From contig NZ_CP104040.1 in the NCBI RefSeq assembly GCF_025152745.1, positions 2,976,001-3,040,000 of the forward strand: a stretch of 64,000 nt of DNA, in the 5' to 3' direction. Source of the stretch: Rhizobium sp. WSM4643. Its GTDB lineage: Bacteria; Pseudomonadota; Alphaproteobacteria; Rhizobiales; Rhizobiaceae. The notes under the pieces are model-generated. The model was not told where the DNA came from and did no database searches. It saw only the letters and a program-made list of their open reading frames with translations. Of the stretch, positions 13,407 through 20,125 are shown one piece after another. Position 1 is the first letter of the stretch; each line of letters begins with the position of its first letter. Made by a program: the position numbers and the translations under genes.

Positions 13407-13454
13407 TGCGGAAATCCGCACAAATCCGTTTGCGTTTCGTGCAGAAAAATGCAC
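13407..13454 (-). promoter_or_regulatory. Paired palindromes, probable DctD upstream activator sites
   Basis: Two inverted repeats lie upstream of the dctA promoter: TGCGGA-AA-TCCGCA at 13407-13420 and GTGCA-N6-TGCAC at 13439-13454. Their centres are 33 bases apart, about three helical turns, so two DctD dimers would sit on the same face. They are about 105 and 140 bases from the predicted dctA start point. The distal one overlaps the ATG of dctB at 13449. Assignment to DctD is from position and known biology. Confidence 0.75.
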
Positions 13455-15317
13455 AAATCTGCCATGTCCGTGTCGCCGAAATTGTGGCCTTCTCTACCCT
13501 TGCATCACCGCATCCGCCGGACATGGTGGGCCTATGCTGTGCTCGCCCTTGTCGCCGTCGTGGCCAGCCTGTGGGTAAGCGGCGAGATCGGCCGGCATCG
13601 GGCGGAGGCTGCCCTCGAGGAACAGGCCCGCATGGATGCGAGGCTGAATGCGGCTTTGCTGCGCACGGTTCTCGAAAAATACCGAGCGCTTCCCTTCGTG
13701 CTATCGCAGGACGTGGCTCTCGCCGCGGCGCTGGCGGGAAACGATGCCGGCACATTCGAGCGGCTCAGTCAGAAGCTGGAAATGCTGACGGCGGGCACGA
13801 AGGCCGCCGTCATCTATGTCATCGACAAGGACGGCATGGCGGTTTCGGCCAGCAACTGGCGCGAACCGACGAGCTTCGTCGGTAATGACTATCGTTTCCG
13901 CGAGTATTTTCAGGGGGCGGCCGAAAGAGGACAGGCCGAGCACTTCGCGCTCGGCACGGTCAGCAAGAAGCCGGGTCTCTATATCTCCCAGCGGATTTCG
14001 GGCAGCAATGGCCTGCTGGGCGTCGTTGTGGTCAAGGTCGAATTCGACGACGTCGAGGCGGATTGGAACGCCTCGGGCACCCCGTCCTACGTCGTTGACG
14101 AGCGCGGCATTGTCCTCATCACCAGCATCCCGTCATGGCGGTTCATGACGATCGGCCGGATCGCCAAAGACCGGCTGACGGCGATCCGCGAAAGCCTTCA
14201 ATTCGGCGCTGCGCCGCTTCAGCCTCTACCGCTCGACATGGTCCGAAATCTCGGCGACGGGCTCGATATCGTCGAGATCGTCATGCCGGGCGATGCCGGG
14301 AAAACCAGGTTTCTCGATGTCGCAACGTCGGTGCCGGCGACCGGATGGCATTTGCAGCACCTGGTGGCGCTGGGGCCATCCGTCGATGCGGGGATTCGCG
14401 AATCCCGCATGCTGGCATTGCTGATACTCCTGCCGCTGCTGGCCGGAGCAGCCTTCCTGTTGCGCCGCCGCCATATGATCACCCTGCGAATCTCCAGCGA
14501 ACAGCAGGCGCGGGAGGAACTGGAACGGCGGGTAGTCGAGCGGACGCTGGATCTCAGCCAGGCTCGGGACCGGCTGCAGGCTGAAATCATCGGCCACAAG
14601 AGCACGGAACAGAAGCTGCAGGCAGTGCAACAGGATCTGGTGCAGGCCAACCGGCTGGCCATCCTGGGTCAGGTGGCCGCCGGCGTCGCCCATGAAATCA
14701 ACCAGCCGGTCGCGACCATCCGCGCCTATGCCGATAACGCCCGCACCTTCCTCGATCGCGGCCAGACGGCGCCTGCCGGCGAAAATCTCGAAAGCATTGC
14801 GGCGCTGACGGAGCGCATAGGTTCGATCACCGAGGAACTGAAGACCTTTGCCCGCAAGGGCCGCGGCAGCGCCGAACCAACAGGATTGAAAGACGTCATC
14901 GAGGGTGCGGTGATGCTGTTGCGGAGCCGGTTTGCCGGCCGGATGGATACGCTCGACATCGACCTGCCGCCCCCTGACCTGCTAGTGATGGGAAACCGGA
15001 TCCGTCTCGAGCAGGTGCTGATCAATCTGCTTCAGAATGCCCTGGAGGCGGTAGCGCCGAAGGCCGGAGAGGGTCGCGTCGAGGTCAGAACATACACCGA
15101 TGCAGGGATGGTAACGGTCACGGTCGCCGACAACGGTCCCGGCATCCCGCCTGATATTCGGAAGGGCTTGTTCACGCCGTTCAATACCTCGAAGGAAAGC
15201 GGTCTCGGCCTCGGCCTGGTGATCTCCAAGGATATCGTCGGCGACTATGGCGGCCGGATGGAGGTTTTAAGCGACAATAGCGGAACCCGGTTCATCGTTC
15301 AGCTAAGGAAGGCTTGA
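13449..15317 (+). CDS. dctB: C4-dicarboxylate sensor histidine kinase DctB
   Basis: A 622-residue inner-membrane kinase. One membrane helix near residues 26-46 ([18 protein letters not shown]), a periplasmic double-PDC dicarboxylate sensor of about 270 residues, a second helix ([18 protein letters not shown]), a signalling helix, then the H-box '[20 protein letters not shown]' with the phospho-acceptor His at about 415. ATP-binding boxes follow: '[13 protein letters not shown]' (N), '[12 protein letters not shown]' (G1) and '[13 protein letters not shown]' (G2). It phosphorylates DctD when C4-dicarboxylates are present. A second in-frame ATG at 13464 is possible. It runs into dctD with four bases between them. 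Confidence 0.97.
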
Positions 15318-15321
15318 GATC

Positions 15322-16674
15322 ATGGAAACGCCGACCCCTGTTGCGCTGATCGACGACGACGAGGACCTGCGCCGCGCCACCGCGCAGACGCTCGAACTCG
15401 CAGGATTTTCCGTTTCCGCCTATGATGGCGCGAAAGCCGCGCTGGCGGATCTGCCGGCGGACTTTGCTGGCCCCGTCGTCACCGATATCCGCATGCCGGA
15501 GATCGACGGACTGCAACTCTTCGCCACGCTCCAGAGCGTCGATGCCGACCTGCCGGTAATCCTGATGACCGGCCACGGTGATATTCCCATGGCCGTTCAG
15601 GCGATCCAGGACGGCGCCTATGATTTCATCGCCAAGCCCTTCGCAGCCGATCGGCTCGTCCAGAGCGTGCGTCGCGCAAGCGAGAAGCGGCGGCTTGTTC
15701 TGGAAAACCGCATGCTGCGGAAAGCAGCCGAAGATGCGCAGGAGAATTTGCCGCTGATCGGCCAGACGCCTGTCATGGAAAATCTTAGAAACATCCTTCG
15801 CCACATCGCCGATACCGATGTGGACGTGCTTGTCGCCGGCGAAACGGGCAGCGGCAAGGAAGTGGTAGCCCAGATCCTGCATCAGTGGAGCCACCGCCGG
15901 AAGGGCAATTTCGTGGCGCTGAATTGTGGTGCCCTGCCCGAAACCGTCATCGAAAGCGAACTGTTCGGCCACGAGGCCGGCGCCTTTACCGGCGCCCAGA
16001 AGCGCCGCACGGGCCGCATCGAACATGCGAGCGGCGGCACGCTGTTCCTCGACGAGATCGAAAGCATGCCGGCCGCCACCCAGGTCAAGATGCTGAGGGT
16101 GCTGGAGATGCGCGAGATCACGCCGCTCGGCACCAATGAGGTGCGTCCGGTCGATCTTCGCGTCGTCGCGGCCGCCAAGATCGACCTCGGGGATCCTTCG
16201 GTGCGCGGCGATTTTCGCGAGGATCTCTATTACAGGCTGAACGTCGTGACGATCTCCATTCCGCCGCTGAGAGAACGCCGCGACGACATTCCGCTGCTGT
16301 TTTCCCACTTCGCCGCTCGCGCCGCGGAGCGTTTCCGTCGCGGTGTCCCGCCGCTTTCCCCGGATGTGCGGCAGCATCTCGCCTCGCACACATGGCCGGG
16401 GAATGTCCGCGAACTCTCGCATTATGCCGAACGCGTCGCGCTTGGCGTGGAAGGCGGTGGAACGGCAGCGGTCCCTCCGCAGCCGACGGATGCGACGCTT
16501 CCCGAACGGCTGGAGCGCTACGAGGCGGAGATCATTCGCGACGCGCTGTCGGCCAATGACGGCGACGTCCGCCGCACCATCGAGGCGCTCGGCATTCCGA
16601 GAAAGACGTTTTATGACAAACTCCAGCGCCACGGCATCAACCGAGGCGGTTTCACCGCGCGAAAGTCTCGATAA
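15322..16674 (+). CDS. dctD: C4-dicarboxylate response regulator DctD (sigma-54 activator)
   Basis: A 450-residue NtrC-type regulator. The receiver domain (residues 1-120) has the acidic pocket 'LIDDDED' and the phospho-acceptor Asp at about 55 in '[12 protein letters not shown]'. The central AAA+ domain has Walker A '[10 protein letters not shown]', the sigma-54 contact loop 'GAFTGA' at about 220-225, and Walker B '[10 protein letters not shown]'. The C-terminus carries a Fis-type helix-turn-helix ('[20 protein letters not shown]'). When phosphorylated by DctB it binds upstream of dctA and opens the sigma-54 promoter. It is convergent with the Lrp gene, 11 bases away. Confidence 0.97.
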
Positions 16675-17383: not shown

Positions 17384-18358
17384 ATGCCCGCCCGCCATAC
17401 CAAGGTGCTCATCATCGGTTCCGGACCCGCAGGCTATACCGCCGCGGTCTATGCCGCGCGCGCCATGCTGAAACCGGTTTTGATCGCCGGTCTCGAACAG
17501 GGCGGCCAGCTGATGATCACCACTGATGTCGAAAACTATCCGGGCTTTGCCGATCCGATCCAAGGTCCCTGGTTGATGGAACAGATGCTGCAGCAGGCAA
17601 AACATGTCGGCGCCGAGATCGTCAACGACCTCGTGACCGAAGTCGACATGAACCAGCGTCCTTTCGTAGCCCGCACCGACAGCGGCCAGGTCTGGACCGC
17701 CGATACGCTGATCATTGCCACCGGCGCCAAGGCCAAATGGCTCGGCATCGAGAGCGAGCAGCATTTCCAGGGCTTTGGCGTTTCGGCCTGCGCCACCTGC
17801 GACGGTTTCTTCTATCGCAACAAGGATGTGATCGTGGTTGGCGGCGGCAACAGCGCCGTCGAGGAGGCGCTCTATCTCTCCAACATCGCCAAGTCGGTGA
17901 CATTAGTGCACCGCCGCGACTTCTTCCGAGCCGAGAAGATTCTGCAGGAACGCCTGTTCTCCAAGGACAATGTCAAGGTGCTGTGGAATACCGAAGTGGC
18001 CGAGATTACCGGCACGCCGGCCAAGCCGCCGATGCCGCAATCCGTATCCGGCGCGCGCCTGCGCGACGTCAGAACCGGCACGATCACCGAAGTGGCGATC
18101 GATGGCGTCTTCGTCGCGATCGGCCATGCGCCGGCAACCGAGCTCTTCAAGGACAAGCTGAAGCTGAAGGACAATGGTTATCTCTGGACTGCGCCGGATT
18201 CGACCGCGACCAGCCTGGAGGGGGTCTATGCAGCGGGCGACGTGACGGATGACACATTCCGCCAGGCGATCACTGCCGCCGGCTTGGGGTGCATGGCTGC
18301 ACTTGAAGCCGAGCGATACTTGACGGGCCACATGCCCGTCGCCGTGGCCGCGGAGTAA
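17384..18358 (+). CDS. trxB: Thioredoxin-disulfide reductase
   Basis: A 324-residue cytoplasmic flavoprotein that passes electrons from NADPH to thioredoxin. The FAD Rossmann motif 'IIGSGPAGYTAAVYAARA' is at the N-terminus, the redox-active pair is in 'SACATCDGFF' (Cys at about 136 and 139), and the NADPH motif 'VVGGGNSAVEEALYL' follows. The closing FAD segment is 'GVYAAGDVTDDTFRQAITAAGLGCMAA'. Length and order are typical of the low-molecular-weight enzyme. lsrB starts 22 bases downstream, so the two may form one transcript. Confidence 0.96.
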   Translation: MPARHTKVLIIGSGPAGYTAAVYAARAMLKPVLIAGLEQGGQLMITTDVENYPGFADPIQGPWLMEQMLQQAKHVGAEIVNDLVTEVDMNQRPFVARTDSGQVWTADTLIIATGAKAKWLGIESEQHFQGFGVSACATCDGFFYRNKDVIVVGGGNSAVEEALYLSNIAKSVTLVHRRDFFRAEKILQERLFSKDNVKVLWNTEVAEITGTPAKPPMPQSVSGARLRDVRTGTITEVAIDGVFVAIGHAPATELFKDKLKLKDNGYLWTAPDSTATSLEGVYAAGDVTDDTFRQAITAAGLGCMAALEAERYLTGHMPVAVAAE

Positions 18359-18380
18359 GATCGGCATGAGGGGTGGGGGA

Positions 18381-19277
18381 ATGCCATTGGATTGGGACAA
18401 GCTGCGTATTTTTCACGCAGCTGCCGAGGCGGGTTCGTTCACGCATGCGGCGGATAAACTGCATCTGTCCCAATCCGCCATCAGCCGCCAGGTCAGCGCC
18501 CTGGAGCAGGATGTCGGCACCAAGCTGTTTCACCGCCATGCACGCGGCCTGATTCTGACGGAACAGGGCGAGTTGCTTTACCGCACCGCCCATGACGTGC
18601 TGCTGAAGCTCGAAACCGTGAAGATGCAGCTCACCGAGACGACCGAGACGCCATCCGGCAAGCTGCGCGTCACGACGACGGTCGGCCTCGGCCAGGGCTG
18701 GCTGACCGACAAGATCCAGGAATTCCTGCAGCTTTATCCCGATGTGCAGATCCAGCTGATCCTCGACAACGAGGAAGTGGATGTGAACATGCGTCATGCC
18801 GACTGCGCCATCCGCCTGCGCCAGCCGCAGCAATCCGACCTCATCCAGCGCAAACTCTTCACCGTGCACATGCACGTCTATGCGGCCCCGTCCTACATCA
18901 ATCGTCATGGCGAGCCGCAAAAGGTCGAGGATCTCGACAGTCACCGCATCATCACCTTCGGCGAGCCGGCGCCAAGCTACCTGCTCGACGTCAACTGGCT
19001 TGAGGTCGCCGGTCGCTCGTCCGACAACAAGCGTATTCCGCATCTGCAGATCAACAGCCAGACCTCGATCAAACGCGCTGCCCTGCTCGGCATCGGCGTC
19101 GCCTGCCTGCCGGATTACATCGTCGGCCGCGACCCAGGCCTGATTCAACTGGCGATCAACGCCGACGTCCCTTCCTTCGACACGTATTTCTGCTATCCCG
19201 ACGAGATCAAGAACGCCGCCAAGCTGAAGGCCTTCCGCGATTTCATCGTCAGCAAGGCCAGAAACTGGAACTTTTAA
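18381..19277 (+). CDS. lsrB: LysR family regulator LsrB/VtlR
   Basis: A 298-residue LysR regulator starting MPLDWDKLRIFHAAAEAGSF, with the helix-turn-helix 'AADKLHLSQSAISRQVSALE' and a periplasmic-binding-like effector domain. The N-terminus, the trxB neighbour and the small RNA genes downstream match the alphaproteobacterial LsrB (Sinorhizobium) / VtlR (Brucella) group, which controls oxidative stress, LPS and symbiosis or virulence, and in Brucella activates abcR2. Cysteines at about 142, 242 and 271 are candidates for redox sensing. ATG 18381 is chosen because GAGGGG lies seven bases upstream; ATG 18366 would add five residues. The assignment is from recognition. Confidence 0.8.
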   Translation: MPLDWDKLRIFHAAAEAGSFTHAADKLHLSQSAISRQVSALEQDVGTKLFHRHARGLILTEQGELLYRTAHDVLLKLETVKMQLTETTETPSGKLRVTTTVGLGQGWLTDKIQEFLQLYPDVQIQLILDNEEVDVNMRHADCAIRLRQPQQSDLIQRKLFTVHMHVYAAPSYINRHGEPQKVEDLDSHRIITFGEPAPSYLLDVNWLEVAGRSSDNKRIPHLQINSQTSIKRAALLGIGVACLPDYIVGRDPGLIQLAINADVPSFDTYFCYPDEIKNAAKLKAFRDFIVSKARNWNF

Positions 19278-19324
19278 GCTTGGTTTTATTGAAGAATTGC
19301 CGACTATGCAGAACACGCATGACT

Positions 19325-19370
19325 GGCATGCACAAATGAGGGTTGCCGTTTGCCCATTAAACCACCATAT
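19325..19370 (+). promoter_or_regulatory. Promoter and shared upstream box of first AbcR-like sRNA
   Basis: GCATGCACAAA at 19326-19336 precedes TTGCCG (-35, 19343-19348) and, 16 bases on, CCATAT (-10, 19365-19370). The same order and spacing recur ahead of the second sRNA. The CATGCACAAA box is a candidate binding site for LsrB, encoded just upstream. ATGC-N7-GCAT at 19306-19320 may add a second contact. Confidence 0.55.
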
Positions 19371-19376
19371 CGCACA

Positions 19377-19492
19377 CAGCTGATGCACATGGTGGCTTTT
19401 CCTCCCAGTTCCACCGCATTAGCTGTTCCCCTCTGGAGGTTTTTGACCTTCACACTTATAAGGGCCCTGGTTTTCCAGTGGCCCTCTTTTTT
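19377..19492 (+). ncRNA. abcR1: AbcR-like trans-acting small RNA, copy 1
   Basis: About 116 bases, from a start predicted seven bases after the -10 box to the end of an intrinsic terminator (AGGGCC-CTGG-TTTT-CCAG-T-GGCCCT, 19461-19485, then CTTTTTTT). It contains the CU-rich anti-ribosome-site segments 'CCTCCCAGT' and 'TTCCCCTCTGGAGG' typical of the AbcR / alpha-r15 family, which with Hfq silences many ABC-transporter mRNAs in Agrobacterium, Brucella and Sinorhizobium. It is a near duplicate of the RNA at 19601-19717. Which copy corresponds to AbcR1 or AbcR2 elsewhere is not decided. Confidence 0.8.
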
Positions 19493-19549
19493 TGCCTTTC
19501 TTCGTCAACGAAATGCCGCACCGCAAAAAATTTGTGCGGCGCATAGCAG

Positions 19550-19594
19550 ACATGCACAAAAAAGCATTGAAACCTGCTCAAGGAAGCACCATAT
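19550..19594 (+). promoter_or_regulatory. Promoter and shared upstream box of second AbcR-like sRNA
   Basis: ACATGCACAAA at 19550-19560, TTGAAA (-35) at 19567-19572, 16-base spacer, CCATAT (-10) at 19589-19594. The distance from the box to the -35 is the same as in copy 1, while the sequence in between is not conserved, which points to a selected regulator site. Confidence 0.55.
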
Positions 19595-19600
19595 CCACCT

Positions 19601-19717
19601 CAGCTGATGCACCTTGTGGTTTCTCTCCCAGTACCACCGCATTAGCTGTTCCCCTCTGGAGGTTTTTTGACCTTCACAATTATAAGGGCCCTGGTTTTCC
19701 AGTGGCCCTCTTTTTTT
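19601..19717 (+). ncRNA. abcR2: AbcR-like trans-acting small RNA, copy 2
   Basis: About 117 bases, nearly identical to copy 1 from the CU-rich region onward. It has 'TCTCCCAGT' and 'TTCCCCTCTGGAGG' as likely single-stranded pairing segments and the same terminator stem (19685-19709) with a seven-T tail. The 5' hairpin differs from copy 1 (the bases after CTGATGCAC), so the two may prefer different targets. Tandem AbcR pairs are known from other rhizobia, though at a different place relative to lsrB in some. Confidence 0.8.
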
Positions 19718-19771
19718 GCCCAAAATTTGCTCATTCAATAAAACCCATCGCCTCACGCCTCCGTGATTTGC

Positions 19772-19799
19772 ATATCGAAGTCAGACGATCGATATATCG
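19772..19799 (+). promoter_or_regulatory. Candidate ArsR-family operator
   Basis: ATATCGA (19772-19778) and TCGATAT (19789-19795) form an inverted repeat with a 10-base spacer, next to a perfect palindrome CGATATATCG (19790-19799). It sits 33-60 bases ahead of the ArsR start at 19832, where an autoregulatory site is expected. Confidence 0.45.
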
Positions 19800-19831
19800 G
19801 TCAGAAACGATTTATAATTCGGCGAACCACG

Positions 19832-20125
19832 ATGGATAAAGACGAAATTATCAAGGCGCTCGCCCATCCGACCCGGATGGACATTCTGAACTGGCTGAAA
19901 AATCCCGAGGAGCATTTCCCCTCGCAGGAGCATCCTTTTGAAATGGGCGTCTGCGCCAGCCAGTTCGAGCGCTGCGGCCTGTCACAGTCGACGGTCTCGG
20001 CCCATCTCGGCACGCTGCATCGCGCCGGCCTCGTCACCACCAAACGCGTCGGCCAGTGGATCTTTTACAAGCGCAACGAAGAAACCATCGCCGCCTTCCT
20101 CAAGCAGCTGACGCAGGACCTCTAG
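19832..20125 (+). CDS. ArsR family winged-helix repressor
   Basis: A 97-residue winged-helix protein: 'MDKDEIIKALAHPTRMDILNWLKNP' followed by the recognition helix 'CGLSQSTVSAHLGTLHRAGLV' and the wing 'TKRVGQWIFYKRNEE'. It lacks an obvious CxC metal site; single cysteines (in 'GVCASQFERCG') could sense electrophiles or thiol stress instead. The likely start is 19832; an in-frame ATG at 19763 would place the operator inside the gene. It ends one base before the MFS gene and almost certainly represses this three-gene operon. Confidence 0.85.
   Translation: MDKDEIIKALAHPTRMDILNWLKNPEEHFPSQEHPFEMGVCASQFERCGLSQSTVSAHLGTLHRAGLVTTKRVGQWIFYKRNEETIAAFLKQLTQDL

Follow-up and report, generated by a model that had tools for sequence, protein, structure and literature searches.

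Background

In Sinorhizobium meliloti the genes of the small RNAs AbcR1 and AbcR2 lie in tandem between lsrB, which encodes a LysR-type regulator, and an ArsR gene (PMC8844928), and the order in Agrobacterium tumefaciens is trxB-vtlR-abcR1-abcR2-arsR (PMC7486931). The account given here follows excerpts of the cited papers. The box proposed for LsrB/VtlR reads GCAT-N3-TG-N3-T (PMC7486931, PMC8844928). It is placed at -61 to -49 of S. meliloti abcR1, whose promoter was bound by LsrB in gel shifts and became more than 22-fold weaker when trimmed of the box (PMC8844928). AbcR2 of the same species is described as RpoH1-dependent and LsrB-independent; the RpoH1 consensus is given as CTTGAA-N16-CCTATAT, and the excerpt on aligned abcR2 promoters of several alphaproteobacteria names no conserved motif besides an RpoH1-like core (PMC8844928). 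In A. tumefaciens, VtlR binds and activates abcR1, AbcR2 is reported as unaffected, and abcR2 promoter DNA as not competing for VtlR (PMC7486931). Control of AbcR1 and AbcR2 by unrelated factors had already been suggested in PMC3712013. The sources conflict on one point: PMC7486931 reports no effect of LsrB on either AbcR RNA in S. meliloti 1021, whereas PMC8844928 reports an effect on AbcR1 in strain 2011. In Brucella abortus the two abcR genes reside on separate chromosomes; VtlR positively regulates abcR2 on chromosome I but, as far as the excerpt goes, not abcR1 on chromosome II (as reported in PMC7486931).

The S. meliloti RNAs carry two anti-Shine-Dalgarno octamers, aSD1 CUCCUCCC and aSD2 UUCCCCUC. 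Their specificity is ascribed largely to expression and less to targeting, with a possible contribution of the bases beside aSD1 (PMC8844928). Another LsrB-controlled RNA of S. meliloti, NfeR1, has a site of the form TGCA-N6-GCAT that is supported by gel shift and point mutation (PMC10746234). Copies of the ar15 family, to which the AbcR RNAs belong, have already been mentioned on plasmids, in a supplementary legend of PMC3712013.

Results

The locus and its regulator gene

The region 17384-20125 of the window (by which we mean the whole analysed stretch of 64 kb) is the trxB-lsrB-abcR1-abcR2-arsR locus of a Rhizobium sensu stricto. Its features are collected in Table 1. The thioredoxin reductase gene is the upstream neighbour expected from conserved synteny, and the LysR-type protein is encoded 3´ of it and 5´ of the abcR genes, as LsrB and VtlR are. 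The initial annotation had placed lsrB/vtlR directly upstream of the RNAs, and a gene with both domains of this regulator type is indeed found there. The starts of the regulator gene and of the ArsR-family gene were picked by eye; for the former, an in-frame ATG is present at 18366 as well. Further upstream, at window positions 13449-16674, two adjoining open reading frames encode a sensor-kinase-like and a sigma-54-activator-like protein, which may be DctB/DctD-like.

Table 1. Features of the trxB-lsrB-abcR-arsR region (window coordinates; promoter positions relative to the model start of each RNA)
Feature	Position	Strand	Evidence
trxB, thioredoxin reductase	17384..18358	+	NCBIfam TIGR01292, 400.2 bits (cutoff 343.45)
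lsrB/vtlR-type LysR regulator gene	18381..19277	+	open reading frame; Pfam HTH_1 and LysR_substrate
TGCA half-site of abcR1, -71	19307..19310	+	left half of published TGCA-N6-GCAT
abcR1 LsrB-type operator GCATGACTGGCATGCACAAA, -61 to -42	19317..19336	+	sequence, matrix
abcR1 core promoter: TTGCCG, 17 bp, CATATC (19366)	19343..19371	+	sequence
abcR1 (ar15) sRNA	19378-19490	+	RF02345, 127 bits; fold z -5.2
abcR2 LsrB-type operator GCATAGCAGACATGCACAAA, -61 to -42	19541..19560	+	sequence, matrix
abcR2 core promoter: TTGAAA, 17 bp, CATATC (19590)	19567..19595	+	sequence
abcR2 (ar15) sRNA	19602-19714	+	RF02345, 117.4 bits; fold z -5.6
ArsR-family regulator gene	19832..20125	+	NCBIfam NF033788, 65.7 bits (cutoff 55)

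Named genomes yielded 589 loci related to the lsrB-type gene, of which the 80 best were retained. Nearest among these are the loci of Rhizobium sophorae and of a Rhizobium sp., each with 100% identity over 295 residues. Over the first 65 residues read, the protein shares 64 with two Agrobacterium loci, 63 with two Sinorhizobium/Ensifer loci and 59 with one Brucella-titled locus, which makes the DNA-binding part almost the same as in the relatives from Agrobacterium and Sinorhizobium/Ensifer. As candidate redox-sensing residues it has three cysteines, at 139, 239 and 268 in the numbering of the fragment read and not of published residues. Cys139 recurs in all five relatives compared, Cys268 in the four from Agrobacterium and Sinorhizobium/Ensifer, and Cys239 in the two from Agrobacterium only.

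When the 80 relatives and the window (81 loci) were searched with Rfam, 47 contained two copies of the RNA, 32 one copy and two (L065, L075) none. The clade of the window, as used below, consists of 18 named loci (the window, L003-L014, L016-L018, L021 and L029), 17 of them with two copies. It was drawn after the promoters had been seen and is not delimited by name, as eight of the 30 outside loci with two copies are titled Rhizobium as well.

Two AbcR RNAs with nearly the same target-pairing motifs

The initial annotation had proposed twin AbcR-like RNAs with common CU-rich segments and terminators. A covariance search with Rfam RF02345 (ar15) bore this out, since both RNAs span the whole model (1-112 of 112) far above its gathering score of 40, and they are the only two matches in the genome (6.44 Mb, E up to 0.001). 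Their 5´ ends had been put at 19377 and 19601, which is within one base of the model starts 19378 and 19602, though not exactly on them. Each RNA folds into three stem-loops with a minimum energy of -44.3 kcal/mol, and none of 200 shuffles of either was as stable. The terminator stem, which is the last of the three, and the CU-rich stretches are present in both RNAs. A generic terminator scan of 19270-19840 found no terminators, perhaps because the stem is bulged.

With regard to pairing motifs, aSD2 UUCCCCUC is exact in both RNAs and does not vary among the 35 copies of the clade. For aSD1, abcR1 agrees with the S. meliloti octamer in seven of eight bases (UUCCUCCC), whereas the motif of abcR2 is altered (UCUCUCCC). 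By analogy with the family, both RNAs are predicted to repress ABC-transporter mRNAs through these motifs together with Hfq.

A difference between the 5´ hairpins had been taken as a hint that AbcR1 and AbcR2 serve distinct sets of targets. The hairpins do differ by a few bases of the loop: UCCUCCC is found in abcR1, as in every first copy of the clade (18/18), and CUCUCCC in abcR2, as in 13 of the 17 second copies, so that the loops differ in 13 of 17 two-copy loci including the window. This agrees with the role considered for bases beside aSD1 in S. meliloti (PMC8844928). The folds as such are alike, however, and in the other four pairs UCCUCCC is common to both copies. Because aSD2 is exact throughout, aSD1 is nearly the same and specificity in S. 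meliloti was ascribed largely to differential expression in the excerpt of PMC8844928, we regard divided targets as a weak possibility and rather doubtful.

The same element precedes both promoters

A shared box 6 bp ahead of each -35 had been reported, with differing sequence in between, and both statements hold. The 10-mer CATGCACAAA precedes TTG-type -35 hexamers at 19343 and 19567, separated from them by TGAGGG in abcR1 and AAAGCA in abcR2. The window contains two exact copies of it (19327-19336 and 19551-19560), against 0.04 expected by shuffling. The 10-mer was nevertheless rejected as the whole site, since the conserved element begins at -61 and a further TGC lies at -27 (19351 in abcR1 and 19575 in abcR2, both within the spacer). 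Both promoters have GCAT-N7-ATGCACAAA from -61 to -42, and the whole element GCATNNNWGNNNTGCNCAAA is again found only at 19317-19336 and 19541-19560 of the window (0.02 expected from shuffles). A chance origin of the box was rejected on the grounds of window shuffles, matrix background and conservation in the genus.

The two elements are not equally complete. Ahead of abcR1, the published GCAT-N3-TG-N3-T is exact at 19317-19329, and TGCA-N6-GCAT, as known from the S. meliloti NfeR1 site of another sRNA family (ar14; excerpt of PMC10746234), is present at 19307-19320. The abcR2 element departs from the former consensus by one base, AG instead of TG at 19548-19549, and lacks the TGCA half; its upstream TGC is at -67, not at -71.

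When both strands of the window were scanned with a matrix for the element, slightly different from the one applied to second copies below, the two abcR boxes ranked highest (24.1 and 25.8). No convincing further LsrB site was found in the window; the best other position, 62280 on the minus strand, scores 19.4 and is without the WG and CAAA parts. A generic sigma-70 scan of 19270-19840 did not find the abcR promoters, which are not of the E. coli type.

Conservation of the second box

A matrix was trained on the first copy, or the sole one, of each of the 61 loci outside the clade and then applied to second copies. All 17 second copies of the clade score 22.6-26.2, each at exactly -61, while background (38,682 positions in six loci) reaches at most 11.5. 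Outside the clade, 26 of the 30 second copies are without a box (best score 6.4 within 150 bp) and four have one (L015, L055, L059, L069); none of the eight Rhizobium-titled loci mentioned above has a second box. The box-less copies include those of the Sinorhizobium/Ensifer-titled loci L040, L042, L044 and L048 and the diverged ones of the Agrobacterium-titled L019 and L022 (75.1 and 68.5 bits), all of which thus differ from the window. In a leave-one-out control of the 61 training promoters, 56 score at least 14 at -61; the remaining five are L048 and L055, whose box is at -62, and L073, L074 and L076.

Within the clade, 15 of 18 first copies have TGC at -71, and none of the 17 second copies does. 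TG at -54 is kept in 16 of 18 first copies and 4 of 17 second ones, the rest having AG; the published consensus is exact in 4/17 second copies. The same AG occurs in 11 of the 61 promoters on which the matrix was trained. All 17 second copies retain GCAT at -61 and TGC at -49, and TGC at -27 is found in every first (18/18) and second (17/17) copy.

As the clade had been drawn with the promoters in view, the test was repeated on genomes picked by genus code, for which a slightly different matrix was used (45 distinct 20-mers instead of 61 promoters). The exact 20-base pattern is present in 146 of 148 such genomes, and 146 of the 148 have two to six ar15 matches. Forty of these genomes (G000-G039) were checked copy by copy. 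Their 145 ar15 matches include 80 that form one tandem pair per genome, and a box precedes all 80: the pattern is exact at -61 in 37 of 40 first copies and 38 of 40 second copies, and the remaining five score 24.4-24.6 at -61 or -62. Every second copy is thus preceded by a box (38 exact, two by matrix).

A search for double boxes in 297 genomes of the family gave 5/5 genomes of the genus and 15 of 292 others, a count that misses divergent boxes and includes genomes without tandem copies among the 292. Seven of these 15 have an ar15 start behind a box in the printed part of the match. One stretch from another genus code, G323:C15:26952-27383, gave two overlapping double-box matches, which amounts to three boxes in a row; an ar15 start follows the first two, and the stretch possibly contains three tandem AbcR genes.

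Stress control of the second copy as an alternative

We also considered that LsrB drives abcR1 only, that abcR2 is under RpoH1 or another stress factor, and that its box is a leftover of an abcR1 duplication. RpoH1 dependence of abcR2 is on record for S. meliloti (excerpt of PMC8844928). Moreover, abcR2 of the window can be read as ATTGAA-N16-ACCATAT, which is near the RpoH1 consensus, and within the clade TTGA stands at the -35 of 13/17 second copies against 3/18 first copies. A leftover box should decay, however, whereas this one keeps its invariant positions in all 17 clade copies and is present in 40 of 40 genus genomes, although the bases around it differ. The cores of second copies in the clade are also nearer to first-copy cores than to those of the 26 box-less second copies (median log-odds +16.5; the -24.4 median of the box-less cores themselves is that of the training data of the matrix). 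For the window, the abcR2 core scores 30.3 on the first-copy matrix and 16.3 on the second-copy matrix. We therefore consider control of abcR1 alone unlikely. Because the -35 region TTGAAA can be read as part of a near-RpoH1 promoter, a double input of LsrB and RpoH1 at abcR2, i.e. a mixed promoter, is possible. That a LysR-type regulator other than LsrB reads the abcR2 box is highly improbable: boxes of this type resemble one another, but the element resembles the LsrB sites of AbcR1 and NfeR1, and the gene adjoins lsrB.

Origin of the second copy

In a tree of 112 distinct sRNA copies, from which ten distant or Brucella-side loci with matches were left out, first and second copies of the clade fall into one weakly supported group (31 rows, 83/67) that takes in one foreign row and leaves out one clade second copy. 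The group is apart from 11 second copies of the Agrobacterium/Neorhizobium side and eight of the Sinorhizobium/Shinella side. AU tests rejected neither of the alternative groupings (p 0.077 and 0.134). The 125 columns are too few to decide between a fresh duplication of abcR1 and conversion of an older abcR2.

Extra copies and plasmids

The other 65 ar15 matches of the 40 genus genomes are not part of the tandem pair, and 61 are on a different contig from it; the genome of the window has no such extra copy. The exact box precedes 20 of the 65 (12 at -61 and eight at -62), and 51 score at least 14 at -62 to -60. This limit was chosen after the scores had been seen; it is reached at any of 102 positions by 3 of 3,250 shuffled upstream regions, and by one of 127,358 positions of the window outside 19280-19580. 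Of the 14 extra copies without a box, 13 are ar15 matches of at most 82 bits. Most of the boxed extra copies have no TTG -35: TTG at -39 to -31 is found in 3/51 boxed extra copies, and TTTTCC or TTTTACC near there in 36/51.

One copy (L101, 262 bases) matches 390 of 72,556 plasmid records, 274 of them typed as conjugative; by genus, 176 are from Rhizobium, 84 from Agrobacterium, 60 from Sinorhizobium and the rest from others. A sample of 19 (L167-L185; 16 of the 24 "spread" rows of the listing and three best-row matches), all typed as conjugative, was inspected. In 17 of them the box scores at least 14 at -60 to -62, the exceptions being L171 (9.8) and L183 (1.0). The neighbourhoods, counted over all 19 although one record carries no annotation, are recurrent. 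A ParB-like or partition gene follows AbcR on the same strand within 4 kb in 9/19, and a very large gene ends at the start of the matched stretch or just before it in seven, six times named helicase or methylase. Both genes flank the RNA in six plasmids (R. etli p42a, three from Agrobacterium, one each from Shinella and Allorhizobium). On two others, pRapFH23a and pRphaN831c, AbcR is located beside virB genes.

Other boxes in the genome

Genome-wide, the exact pattern has three sites: abcR1, abcR2 and one upstream of a nadE-type NAD synthase gene. The latter (L083:1501-1520, i.e. G000:C1:1041897-1041916) is 70 bp upstream of the gene at 1591-2424, with CATAGT, noted by eye, near the place of a -10; its 20-mer is identical in three of the 40 genus genomes, own genome included. 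The nadE-type gene is a possible redox-linked target of LsrB. A box one mismatch off the abcR pattern precedes the ar14/nfeR1 gene (L094:1344-1520, minus strand, 113.4 bits), which also displays TGCA-N6-GCAT; this fits the status of NfeR1 as an LsrB target in S. meliloti. Ten other sites have one mismatch. As a reversed control pattern also yields four matches when one mismatch is allowed, some of these sites are attributable to chance.

Discussion

Relatives are already known to have this locus, its two sRNAs and an abcR1 under LsrB control. The S. meliloti genes (SMc01226-lsrB intergenic region; excerpt of PMC8844928) belong to the same sRNA family, in the same order and tandem layout and with the abcR1 box at -61, and the order in A. 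tumefaciens is likewise that of the window (excerpt of PMC7486931). The part beyond the known is the second box: whereas LsrB is described as not controlling abcR2 of S. meliloti, a box precedes both RNAs here. Among titles and opening lines of abstracts in the open-access literature, we found no report of an LsrB box at Rhizobium abcR2 or at a plasmid-borne AbcR gene.

We suggest that LsrB drives both AbcR RNAs in this clade through a dyad operator at each promoter, and assign to this reading a probability of roughly 0.72. LsrB, encoded next door, would bind the dyad GCAT-N7-ATGCNCAAA centred near -54 of each promoter and recruit vegetative RNA polymerase, so that AbcR1 and AbcR2 would rise together. 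Their CU-rich anti-Shine-Dalgarno motifs would then pair with ribosome sites and keep mRNAs for ABC transporters and metabolic functions from being translated. That LsrB binds and activates at abcR1, and that the RNAs silence in this way, is carried over from papers on relatives and presumably holds here. Family identity, the element, its fixed spacing and its conservation were observed directly. Speaking against the reading are the reported independence of AbcR2 from VtlR in A. tumefaciens and from LsrB in S. meliloti, although the second copies of all six loci inspected from these groups are box-less, as well as the abcR2 promoter alignment of PMC8844928 and the conflict between that paper and PMC7486931.

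The initial annotation had proposed that LsrB switches both RNAs, and the two halves of this claim fared differently. Identification as AbcR RNAs and, for abcR1, control by LsrB are strongly supported by Rfam, synteny and the published consensus at the published position. For abcR2, direct LsrB control in this lineage is a reasonable prediction backed by conservation in 80 of 80 tandem copies, with the consensus one base off and TGC at -71 absent. The abcR1 operator would be the full one (TGCA-N6-GCAT-N7-ATGC) and that of abcR2 incomplete. As the latter has no outer TGCA half-site and one changed core base, a weaker response than that of abcR1, or one at a different level of LsrB, might be expected; perhaps it is the weaker one. 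Since the TGCA half-site is present in one promoter only, the tandem pair offers a built-in test of the requirements of an LsrB operator.

A wider reading is that LsrB serves as common switch of a multicopy AbcR family, comprising both chromosomal copies of the clade and copies on conjugative plasmids across Rhizobiaceae, often at a recurrent spot of the plasmid backbone. We put it forward tentatively, at somewhat less than even odds. To judge from the plasmid copies, mobile elements may connect to LsrB. If this is true, a further sRNA would enter the cell with an incoming plasmid, respond to the LsrB of the host and reset nutrient uptake.

In the picture drawn from the two plant-associated model species, LsrB drives AbcR1, and AbcR2 is under another control, namely RpoH1 in S. 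meliloti. If the clade of the window puts both under LsrB, this division of labour would be lineage-specific. Results on AbcR1 and AbcR2 would then not be simply transferable to the symbionts of this clade, in which redundancy of the two RNAs may mask the effect of single-gene knockouts.
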